A stretch of 64,000 nucleotides of DNA from Heterotrichella gracilis. Lineage: Eukaryota; Sar; Xanthophyceae; Tribonematales; Xanthonemataceae. The notes beneath the pieces were generated by a model, which did no database searches, was not told where the DNA came from, and saw only the letters and a list, made by a program, of their open reading frames with translations. The stretch lies in contig JAULBX010020077.1 in the NCBI GenBank assembly GCA_032358255.1, positions 16,313 through 80,312 of the forward strand, in the 5' to 3' direction. Shown in pieces: positions 3,461-7,953 of the stretch (its first letter is position 1; each line of letters starts with the position of its first letter). The position numbers and the translations under genes were made by a program.

Positions 3461-6400
3461 ATGGCTGGTTTGGTGTTCATGCCACTTTCTACATGCACAG
3501 TGATTTGCCTTGCGGCAGTCAGCTCGGTCCTGGCACCCTCACACCACTTGTGCACCGCAGCTCCAACCACAGCAATGCCCAACCCTGTCTTGCATGAGGT
3601 CTACCCACCCGTTCCCTCCTTTCTTCCAATGCCTAACCGTGCCACCCCGCCACCAATAGGATGTCGAGGCCACTGCCACACCATCTGCGGTGGCCGAAGA
3701 CTACCCCACCATCGAGCAGTTTGTTGGCAACACGCCCCTGGTGCGTCTGCAGCGACTCAAAGGAAACCCCTCCAACGTGATCCTGGCCAAGCTGGAGGGG
3801 AATAACCCTGCGGGGTCAGTCAAGGACAGGTGGGGGCACACACCCGGTGGTGTTTAGGGTTTAGGGTTTGGGCCTGGTGGCCCAGAGTGCGATGCCATAT
3901 GCACATTGGGTTTAGGGTTTAGGGTTAACATGCGTGCGGTATGCATACCAGGGCTAGGCGATGCCTCATGCTGGTCTGTCGGTCAAGGACAAGTGGGGAA
4001 TGTCGATACCACTGCGCCATATGCACGCATACCGGGTGCAGGGTTTAGGGGGCATGCCTGGCCCCAGCACCATATGCATGCATAGGCACATTGTAGCTGG
4101 GCCGCACCGCATAGAGACACTAAACCCTAAACCCTGCCCCCAGGCCCGCCCTGAGCATGATCCACGAGGCGGAGGTGTCGGGCCGCATCAAACCAGGGGA
4201 CACTCTTATTGAGGCCACAAGCGGGAACACAGGCATCGCACTGGCCATGGCGGCAGCCATAAAAGGTGGGTGTTGTGTGTGGGGGGAGGGGGCATGGCGG
4301 CGGTAACTGGTCGATGGGTGGTGATGAGGTGATGCCCATGTGATAGTTACCCTAAAGACCCTAGAAAAGGCAATTGGCCGGGACTGCTGGGAACACAGGC
4401 ATTGCGCTGGCCATGGTTGCGGCGATGAAAGTTGGTGGTGTGTGTGTGTGGGGGGGGGGGGGCAGAGGGTTGTGTGGGCATGGCAGCAACAACTGAAAGG
4501 TAATGGGTGTGACTGAATGGTGCCCTTGTAATCACTCGCTTTGTGAAGCACCCAGGTGTTGGGCATGTGTTGCATGAAGCTGATCATGATGTCTATTCCA
4601 ATCCATGATTATGTGTGCTTGCTGCATTCTACGGCATGGGGCTCAGCACGGGTATGGGCATGGCGAAGGATGAAAGGTTGGAATTATGATCATTTACGAT
4701 TATTTGTGCAGGCTACCGCATGAAGCTGATCATGCCCGCTAACATGAGCGAGGAGCGGAGGGCAGCCATGTCAGCATACGGGGCGGAGCTCATCAGTGTA
4801 AGGATCAACTTAATTATTCTCATTATTAGTGATGTTATTGATGATTCAATCAGTGATGTTATTGTGATTATCCAGTGTAATCATGCTATTATGATGAGTG
4901 AGGGCGGCCATGTCGGCGTATGGAGCAGAGCTCATCAGTGTACGGCTTGCCTTGGAGTCTATTTCTGTTTCTGTTTCTCTTCCTTACAAAGGTTGTAAGG
5001 ATCATGGTTGCCCTCTGCTAGGTTGTGCATGCTGAGGTGCGAATGTGCTGATGGTTGGGGTGGGTTTTGGGCGATCTGGGAGCGAGTTGACCACTGCACG
5101 CTGACACTTTGCCTCTTAAATCATTTTCCTACTGTCAATTTGTTAAAGATGGTGATTTGTAGAAGGTCGCTTGCTACACCCGCAGGTCCCCCCCGGTCAG
5201 ATGGAGGCTGCTCGGGACCTGGCCAAGGAGATGGAGGCCAGGGGGGAGGGCATAGTCCTGGACCAGTTCAGCAATGGGGACAACCCTAAAGCACATTTGA
5301 ATGGCACAGGTGCGTTGGGGGGGGAAGATGCAATGGGGAAGTGTAGTGAGCACACATTCATGCAGTCTTCTCCAGGGGATGCTGTCCCAAACCAGTTGTC
5401 GGATCCCATGCTCGTGTATGCTCCATCTACAGTATGCCATGCCAAGCAGTATAAGCACAGGCAAGGGGGGAGGGAGATGGCCTGGGGAAATATAGTGTGC
5501 ACACATTGGAAGGCGTGCGCTGGCGTGCGTGGGGATGAGCGGGTCCCCATGGACCACTACGTATGATGGGATGGCAACAGGGGCAGGGGGGTGCGCACAA
5601 GCCCACGGCTGCAGACCGGTGCAATTGACGCCAACTGCTGTCATGCAATTGATGGTGTGTGGTGTAAAGTAAGTAGAGTGGTAAAAAGTAAAAACAAAGT
5701 AAAAACTCTTTCAACGGAAATCAAACATTTTTTTGTGCTGTGTGCAGGGCCCGAGGTGTGGGACCAGACCAATGGGAGGATAACACATTTTGTTTCCTCC
5801 ATGGGCACCACGGGCACAATTATGGGCACCTCCACCTACCTCAAGGGCAAAAATCCCGACATCCAGATTGTGGGGCTGCAACCCGCCGAGGGGGCGTCGA
5901 TACCAGGTGGGGACAAGAGTTGTGATTGAGGTGTTATGACCAGATCTCAAACAGTAAGTGTGTAAACAGACGTTAAAAAGTAGAAATGATTGCATGTTGG
6001 TGGTTATCAGGCGCTGCTGCTGACTGTGTAAAGGAAAGTAATGGATGGTGCAACGATCATTGGTGTTGTAAGAACATCATTTAGAAATGATGATTATAGT
6101 GCTTGGTTCGGGATTGGCCTTGATGACATCATTCGGAAATGGCTTTGTCAGAAACTTTTTCGTCCAAAGCATTGACATTCAGGGTTTATGCCTGCTCCCT
6201 GTGCCGAGGTCCCATGCGCATGTGTGCCCTGTGCAGGCATTCGGCGCTGGCCCCAGGAGTACCTCCCCTCCATCTTTGACGCTGCCAAGGTGGATAGGGT
6301 GATGGAGATCACGCAGAGGGAGGCGGAGGAGACCATGCGGTGAGGACCGTGTGCATGCATCAAACCGTAAACCCTAAAAACCTAAGAGGCATCATGCAGA

Positions 6401-7953
6401 GGGAGGCTGAGGAAACCATGCGGTGAGGGCCATGCGCATGCGCAGTGACTGGGTCTAGGATTGCGTTTTGCATCGATGATTGCTTGAAACCCCCATATCT
6501 CATTGCTACTTTGGTAATGACTTGCTTGAATAATTGCCCTGACATCTAGCAAGATTGCATCCTGATGTTTGCTGTTGTTTTCTCTTCTCAGGGCTATGGC
6601 AAAGGTGGAGGGCATTTTTGCGGGGGTGTCATCTGGAGGGTCCATTTCAGCCGCGCTGCGGTTGGCCAGTGAAGTGGAGAACGCAACCATTGTGGCCATC
6701 GTGTGTGACCGAGGCGATCGGTATCTATCGACAGGTCAGTATGATGGCTGGGGACTGGAGGAAATAAGTATAAAAAATAAATGTAAAGGCAACATCCACT
6801 TGTGGAGAAGGAGAATACAAATATGAACATTAGTCACAGGGTGCCATGCGTGTATGCAGAGCGGCATGGCGATTGGCAATGATCACATGTGAAACAGACT
6901 GAAGCAGCAAAACTAGGAGCATTGAGCGCCGCAAGCTGTTGCACTGCGAGCGTAGCCCACTTCTTTGCACCTGTTATGGCATGCCACTGGGCAAAGCACA
7001 GCTACGATCGTACAGTGAAGCAAGAATATTGCCTTGTACAGTTGATCGGGAATGAAGGGGCACACTGCCTTGTAGGGTAGGTTAGGTGTATAGAACCACT
7101 TACCATATACCGGATACCAGTTACGGTCATACATAGCAGAGATGGGCATGACCGCTGAGCCGTTGCATCATTGCCGTGCAGGTGTGTTTTCCCAGGAGGC
7201 AGGCGCCCACGACCCCCAGCCCTGCACTGTGGAGGAGTTCCCTTCTGCCGTGGCGCGCTTGATAGCTTACCCAGCGCCGCACTACGTGGTGTTCTCAGGT
7301 ATGTGCTTGCACCATGCACCAATTCGCAGGAATGCGGCAAGCTGAAGCCAATACTTTGTGCGCTGTCTGGTGGCCAACCTGCTCATCAAATCCTCATGTG
7401 CGGTTGCGCAGCTCATCAGACACCGCCACCAACAATAAACTCCTACACCCTAAACCACAAACCCTAAACAGTCGTTGCTTTGCGCAGCAATTACAATTCC
7501 ATCACCAACCACCCTATCCTCACACACCACACCCTAATCAGCCGTCGCCTTGCCGACTATGACCCCAACGTCCTAAACCCTACATTCAAACCCCTGCACC
7601 CTAAAACCCTAAACTCTAACCAGCTATTGCCGTGCGCAGCCGACTACGACCCCTCCACTTGCCAGCCCTGGTGCGGCGACTGCGCCCTCTCCATACCCAT
7701 CATCAGGCGACAGGTGGAGGCGGCAGGGGGCACGCTACTCGAGGTTTTGGTGGGGCCCCGGTCCGTGTGGAAGGACCCTAACCACCCCCTCCGCCACCAC
7801 CCGCTGCTCCGCCTGACTGGCGTGCCCACGCTGGTGCGCTGGGGCGCAAATGGGTTTGGTGAGAGGGTGGGTGGGGAGCTGGAGTCGGCTACAACGCCGG
7901 TGGAGGTCGAGGGGATTGTGGAGGGTTTCCTTGCAGGCACCAGCAGCAGTTGA
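3461..7953 (+). CDS. CysM-type cysteine synthase fused to a TRP14 (TXNDC17) thioredoxin-like domain
   Basis: Coding exons are 3660-3829, 4144-4265, 4712-4797, 5186-5309, 5748-5906, 6237-6339, 6592-6734, 7182-7298 and 7640-7953; all phases agree and give 445 residues. The 5' exon (ATG 3461, possible donor near 3599) is uncertain. Residues ~15-320 are a PLP fold-type II cysteine synthase with NPAGSVKDR (PLP lysine), TSGNTGI (substrate loop) and GVSSGGS (phosphate cup). [13 protein letters not shown] and the PGIRRW loop mark it as CysM rather than CysK. The last ~120 residues are a thioredoxin-like domain with active site WCGDC (TRP14 has WCPDC), [11 protein letters not shown] and the cis-Pro strand GVPTL. 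Exon 7182-7298 holds both the CysM end (VFSQEAG) and the first thioredoxin strand (HYVVFS), so the two halves share one reading frame. CysM enzymes accept thiosulfate and make S-sulfocysteine; TRP14 reduces cystine and protein thiol adducts. A one-protein route to cysteine is my inference. Plastid location is likely but the presequence is not proven. Confidence 0.9.
4385..4535 (+). repeat. Intronic echo of CysM exon 4144-4265 and its donor
   Basis: Sequence matching 4213-4350 (end of the exon, its 5' splice junction and the GT-rich start of the intron) recurs here with substitutions. The echo of GNTGIALAM is still readable, but the donor region has changed. Confidence 0.75.
4893..4945 (+). 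repeat. Intronic echo of CysM exon 4712-4797 end
   Basis: The stretch repeats the last ~50 bases of the exon coding for [18 protein letters not shown], with deletions and a frameshift, 150 bases downstream of the true junction. Confidence 0.75.
6386..6430 (+). repeat. Intronic echo of CysM exon 6237-6339 end
   Basis: Copy of the exon end coding for [11 protein letters not shown], including the CGGTGAGG splice donor, placed ~80 bases after the original and separated from it by CCCTAAA-like sequence. Confidence 0.75.
7540..7620 (+). repeat. Echo of the thioredoxin-exon acceptor plus CCCTAAA tract
   Basis: A decayed copy of the last exon's 3' splice site and first codons (GCCGACTATGACCCC against GCCGACTACGACCCC at 7639) lies ~90 bases upstream of the real one, followed by CCCTAAA-type sequence. 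Confidence 0.65.

Follow-up and report, generated by a model that had tools for sequence, protein, structure and literature searches.

Predicted fusion of a CysM cysteine synthase and a TXNDC17-like reductase domain in the alga Heterotrichella gracilis

The stretch of DNA analysed, referred to here as the window, is a 64,000 nucleotide region of the Heterotrichella gracilis genome (GenBank assembly GCA_032358255.1, contig JAULBX010020077.1, positions 16,313 to 80,312 of the forward strand). It lies on contig C202 of the searched assembly, which comprised 903 contigs and 68.5 Mb. The window has a GC content of approximately 53% and contains 43 copies of the 7-mer TTTAGGG, both strands included. 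A single intron-rich gene in the window is predicted to encode a CysM-type cysteine synthase continued at its C-terminus by a reductase domain of the TXNDC17 (TRP14) family. Nine exons between 3660 and 7953 join at GT-AG borders into one open frame, which ends with TGA at 7953. All splice forms were predicted from DNA. The features of the gene are as follows.

Gene structure and the first exon

3019..3219, plus strand: probable first exon, 67 amino acids, ending in phase 0 with donor GAG/GTTTGT, given by prediction only
3461..3598, plus strand: first exon according to an earlier sequence-only reading, 46 amino acids with 1 acidic residue and no Lys or Arg, weak donor and 61-nt intron, less likely
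3660..3829, plus strand: exon 2, start of the CysM domain up to the lysine that carries pyridoxal phosphate (PLP) (GSVKD)
4144..4265, plus strand: exon 3, CysM with the TSGNTG loop
4712..4797, plus strand: exon 4, CysM
5186..5309, plus strand: exon 5, CysM
5748..5906, plus strand: exon 6, CysM with the GTTGT loop
6237..6339, plus strand: exon 7, CysM with the IRRW loop (R210-R211-W212 of E. coli)
6592..6734, plus strand: exon 8, CysM to DRGDRYLST and one base of the next Gly codon
6735..7181, plus strand: intron 8, 447 nt, with in-frame ATGs at 7142 and 7148
7182..7298, plus strand: exon 9 (the fusion exon), last CysM residues (G)VF, linker and first part of the TXNDC17-like domain
7640..7953, plus strand: exon 10, remainder of the TXNDC17-like domain with WCGDC, WKDP and VPTL, stop codon TGA

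Introns 2 to 7 and intron 9 range in size from 252 to 446 nt, with intron 8 at 447 nt. The sequence-only reading had all nine exons sharing one phase. The frame is indeed continuous, but the exons end in phases 0, 2, 1, 0, 1, 1, 2, 1 and 1. The GC content at third codon positions (GC3) of exons 9 and 10 (0.76 and 0.80) is inside the range of CysM exons 2 to 8 (0.60-0.88).

The two candidate first exons were compared using a donor matrix built on eight other donors of the gene. The donor of 3461-3598 (GAG/GTCTAC) scored -0.4 and is followed by an intron of 61 nt, while the donor of 3019-3219 scored 5.3 with an intron of 440 nt. The latter exon was preferred because of its better donor, an intron length like that of the others and transit-peptide-like residues. 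The first 50 residues of its peptide include no acidic and 6 basic residues, and 56% are S, T, A or P. Two observations count against this choice. The exon 2 acceptor, common to both models, is weak (0.0), and the GC3 of 3019-3219 (0.52) is below that of the other exons, with 0.59 for 3461-3598. A low GC3 would fit either a rapidly evolving targeting sequence or non-coding DNA. The exon at 3019-3219 is considered the more likely start and replaces the earlier one at 3461.

The two domains and their junction

The CysM domain is complete. It exceeded both NCBIfam equivalog cut-offs for CysM (NF008735: 521.3 bits, cut-off 413; TIGR01138: 472.8 bits, cut-off 394.2) and fell below both of those for CysK (290.4 bits, cut-off 350.95; 267 bits, cut-off 387). 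It also passed the model for the joint cysKM subfamily (379.2 against 344.15). The best PDB matches carry the names cysteine synthase B or O-acetylserine sulfhydrylase B, with 2bht at the top; these scored 415 to 425 bits and the next match 228. TSGNTG, GTTGT, SSGG, the IRRW loop and the PLP lysine are all retained. The PLP lysine and R210, R211 and W212 of E. coli CysM correspond to K122 and R290, R291 and W292 in the alga protein, and these are presumably the residues that bind thiosulfate. The B form of O-acetylserine sulfhydrylase (OASS) has Arg210 at the pocket over PLP, where OASS-A has Ala231 (PMC3805590; this and the papers cited below are used through excerpts).

The reductase half matched PF06110 with 61.4 bits in the whole protein and 64.4 bits for the tail alone (cut-off 23.1). 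The only other Pfam match of the tail up to an E value of 10 was Thioredoxin_9, which was below threshold (E 0.005). Five PDB matches were found for the tail (E up to 0.001), four named TXNDC17 or thioredoxin-related protein 14 kDa and one named 'putative 42-9-9 protein'. The active motif reads WCGDC. WCPDC is described as the conserved signature of TRP14 (PMC11763069, PMC11217419), and the domain is therefore termed TXNDC17-like and not TRP14 proper. It also forms part of a larger predicted protein and is not free-standing as TXNDC17/TRP14 is. An exon-by-exon search of the assembly gave no second PF06110 domain; genes interrupted by introns may escape such a search.

In STGVF the codon for Gly is divided between exons 8 and 9. 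Val-Phe are the first whole residues of exon 9, and a short linker and the reductase come next, so that the exon at 7182-7298 holds both the CysM end and the start of the thioredoxin domain, as had been proposed. Bacterial CysM ended in G-[VIL]-[FY] in all 54 rows counted, these being the 57 rows fetched for the tree described below minus three distant ones (L096, L097 and L100) which were dropped before counting. Among the 4419 YAG sites of the window, both strands and the real site included, 3 would yield G-V-F in frame when paired with a donor that leaves a single G, and 9 would yield G-[VIL]-[FY] in frame.

Of 109 bacterial and viral loci, 108 have their stop 0 to 11 residues beyond the point where the CysM alignment ends; in L099 (35% identical) it comes after 31. 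The 109 loci comprised a set of 78 (two viral), a set of 30 and E. coli; L107 is the same gene as L028, and a few are distant synthases and not CysM. None of the 109 loci read encoded a bacterial CysM with such a C-terminal domain. PF06110 was above the cut-off in none of 398 Pseudomonadota genomes (3 weak matches, E <0.001), 5 chosen genomes and 14 control genomes. A bacterial precursor of the fusion was seen neither in the 109 loci nor in the genomes scanned. In the predicted protein the reductase is joined where bacterial CysM normally ends. A single polypeptide of CysM and a TRP14-like domain, as claimed previously, is well supported at the level of sequence by the continuous frame, the domain cut-offs passed and the conserved CysM end at the fusion exon.

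Bacterial affinity of the CysM half and repeats in its introns

The CysM half is 78% identical to CysM of Marinobacter and 68.6% identical to that of E. coli. Bacterial relatives were searched for by exact peptide patterns, a method which favours close relatives. Matches at E <1e-80 were obtained in 100 of 299 genomes of the phylum of Marinobacter, and the strongest came from the Marinobacter genome around which the sample was centred. A midpoint-rooted tree was constructed from 58 rows, consisting of the window CysM and 57 of the 109 loci, without eukaryotic CysM. The window CysM grouped with the other 50 non-enteric CysM rows with support of 94/94, just under the starred level. It was placed on a long end branch and its exact neighbour was not resolved. 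The named rows of this group are Gammaproteobacteria and the others were drawn from the Pseudomonadota sample. The CysM half was probably acquired from a gammaproteobacterium. Marinobacter was not accepted as the donor; it is closest by identity only and the tree does not fix the donor. Viral contigs gave two CysM-like matches of 42% and 38% identity with frame tails of 1 and 5 residues, respectively. Twelve stretches of viral contigs fitted the pattern of the reductase tail and no relative was found among them.

In four of the eight introns tested (introns 2 to 9), the last part of the preceding exon recurs, together with its donor region, as a degenerate copy. The copies are 82-90% identical, with E values from 4e-4 to 2e-12.

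approximately 3978-3998: exon-end copy in intron 2
approximately 4389-4442: exon-end copy in intron 3
approximately 4900-4945: exon-end copy in intron 4
approximately 6391-6434: exon-end copy in intron 7

Three copies were compared by codon and 12 of 16 differences were silent, including 6 of 6 in the exon 4 copy. Since the CysM part probably descends from an intronless bacterial gene, the copies may be footprints of how the CysM introns arose or grew. At 4572-4588, intron 3 also contains 17 bases that exactly repeat a segment from the beginning of exon 4, upstream of the genuine exon. A comparable pattern occurs in a neighbouring gene, which resembles a helicase by eye only and holds a tandem array of a 117-bp unit at 28866-29271 (3.5 copies, 97% match). 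This unit seems to span the last part of an exon, the donor and the beginning of the intron. Exon-intron borders may frequently be copied in tandem in this genome. A tRNA-Ala (AGC) is located approximately 600 bases downstream of the fusion gene, on the minus strand at 8558-8631.

Proposed reaction and alternatives

If spliced in the cell as predicted, this nuclear gene would encode one protein of approximately 512 residues with an N-terminal targeting peptide, CysM and the TXNDC17-like reductase. The targeting peptide would probably send the protein to an organelle (plastid or mitochondrion). The CysM half would join O-acetylserine with thiosulfate (or sulfide), thiosulfate giving S-sulfocysteine. 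The tethered WCGDC domain, to which this product may be channelled, would cleave S-sulfocysteine to cysteine and sulfite and would be recharged by a donor of the thioredoxin reductase type. The released sulfite could pass on to sulfite reductase. Taken as a whole, this proposal of a synthase and attached product reductase in one (perhaps organellar) protein stands about evenly between right and wrong.

CysM makes S-sulfocysteine from O-acetylserine and thiosulfate, and the Pseudomonas aeruginosa enzyme accepts sulfide as well as thiosulfate (PMC12800425). General thioredoxins (Trx) and glutaredoxins (Grx) are credited with the conversion of S-sulfocysteine to cysteine in E. coli. All of those tested other than Grx4 carry out this reduction in vitro, and the sulfite that it releases is reused (PMC3528435). 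The same reduction by the attached domain would be plausible chemistry because Trx and most Grx perform it in vitro. TRP14 acts on cystine and cysteinylated proteins and leaves insulin unreduced (PMC11217419). Its substrates are small and mixed disulfides, of which S-sulfocysteine can be regarded as a chemical relative. Since TRP14 takes such disulfides, and Trx and Grx reduce S-sulfocysteine, a synthase with its product reductase would be the most economical reading. To call the protein a self-contained thiosulfate-to-cysteine enzyme, as the sequence-only reading did, goes too far because the domain needs an electron donor and CysM also takes sulfide (PMC12800425). A fuller scenario is doubtful. 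In it the alga would have taken a gammaproteobacterial cysM which gained seven introns and was fused to the only detectable TXNDC17-like reductase. The product would be an organelle enzyme that converts thiosulfate to cysteine and sulfite, with a cytosolic family moved to an organelle and given S-sulfocysteine as its dedicated substrate.

SAT-like matches on two putatively algal contigs of the assembly were counted in favour of the proposed reaction. Genes of the CysK type are present elsewhere, with C519 and C6 scoring best as CysK on partial sequence and C263 less clear; the GC content around all three was checked and is 53-55%. Because of these CysK-type genes and SAT-like loci, the fusion is probably not the sole route to cysteine in the alga. 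PF04143 (YeeE/YedE) matches on C205 and C222 were considered as the thiosulfate import of the alga. They lie among intronless bacterial-type genes in sequence of 35-37% GC, were judged to be contamination and were used neither way. Contigs C191, C205 and C222 (L001, L102 and L103) are intronless, have 35-37% GC in the 3.3-3.9 kb around the matches and are Bacteroidota-like by eye. YeeE/YedE-type transporters lie on the bacterial-looking contigs, and C191 also encodes a protein resembling cystathionine beta-synthase.

A number of points weigh against the proposed reaction. The PF04143 profile matches provided no thiosulfate importer that can be credited to the alga; the verdict of contamination applies to C205 and C222, and one further match is on C74. 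The active motif departs from the TRP14 signature at its third position. S-sulfocysteine is not reported as a TRP14 substrate in the excerpts of the TRP14 literature. The terms TRP14, cystine and S-sulfocysteine occur in both PMC12415419 and PMC12319549, and the excerpts of PMC12415419 do not link them with one another. Poplar Clot/TRP14 is cytosolic (PMC11763069), whereas the predicted N-terminus here suggests an organelle. The choice of first exon, on which that N-terminus depends, is itself a prediction. An AlphaFold model of exon 10 alone, run without an alignment, was mostly helical with a pLDDT of 51.4 and a pTM of 0.37 and was not used as support.

It is quite possible that the fusion is real but serves other substrates. 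The reductase could act on cystine, persulfides or nearby disulfides, or keep CysM (e.g. Cys360) reduced, with CysM working mainly with sulfide. Human TRP14 has a narrow specificity and acts as cystine reductase, decysteinylase and depersulfidase (PMC11217419, PMC11763069), and CysM of P. aeruginosa is 10- to 15-fold more efficient with bisulfide than with thiosulfate (PMC12800425). However, the partner sits on CysM and not on CysK, and it is the thiosulfate product of CysM that needs a thiol-disulfide reductase, an argument from logic.

It is improbable that the gene model wrongly joins a CysM gene to an adjacent gene for a TXNDC17-like protein whose start lies in intron 8. Both ATGs of intron 8 (7142 and 7148) are in frame with exon 9, and only one of the eight acceptors scored is weaker than that of this intron (4.1; range 3.8-13.6). 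The intron has one TGTAA (6782) and one AATAAA (6776), and no TGTAA occurs in the 1047 bases past the stop at 7953. However, TGTAA is also present in four of the seven other introns tested, and AATAAA was counted in intron 8 only. A 3' end, a promoter and a 5' end would all have to fit in a gap of 447 nt, a length similar to that of the other introns. The junction itself is the main argument against two genes. CysM would miss the end conserved in every bacterial row counted and exon 9 would start with it by chance, as 9 of the 4419 YAG sites do. An assembly or contamination artefact, in which a bacterial cysM was joined to algal sequence, is very improbable; bacterial-looking contigs are present in the assembly (C191, C205 and C222; 35-37% GC), but the CysM part itself has seven GT-AG introns in approximately 53% GC sequence with TTTAGGG repeats, and its junction with the reductase lies inside one exon.

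The predicted fusion protein was compared to known systems. It shares with bacterial CysM the whole catalytic domain, the equivalog cut-offs, the PLP lysine, the IRRW loop and the C-terminal G-V-F; unlike bacterial CysM it has introns in its gene, an N-terminal extension and a C-terminal reductase. With TXNDC17/TRP14/Clot it has in common PF06110, W-C-x-D-C with the Asp kept, WKDP and VPTL. It differs in reading WCGDC instead of WCPDC, in being a C-terminal domain where those are a free 14-kDa protein, and possibly in location (organelle against cytosol). Arabidopsis CS26 is a member of the plant CysK-type family. CS26 is a thylakoid-lumen S-sulfocysteine synthase, alike in the proposed activity and, if the alga protein is plastidial, in being in an organelle, but no fused reductase is described for it in the excerpted text (PMC3813922). 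It would be a functional neighbour if the alga protein is plastidial. E. coli CysM with Grx1, NrdH or Trx converts thiosulfate by way of S-sulfocysteine to cysteine and sulfite (PMC3528435), a path which is only proposed for the alga. The E. coli system uses separate proteins and Trx/Grx, in contrast to one predicted polypeptide with a TXNDC17-like domain. The TRP14/Clot orthologues of plants are said to have been little characterized (PMC11763069).

Both domains are known. Their combination appears in no titles or abstracts among the papers listed by searches of a mostly open-access literature and in no prokaryotic loci examined; predicted eukaryotic fusions may already be deposited. The fusion points to a testable pairing in which the product of CysM would be passed to a TXNDC17-like reductase. 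If this is true, it would represent a eukaryotic use of bacterial CysM and possibly thiosulfate assimilation in an algal organelle.

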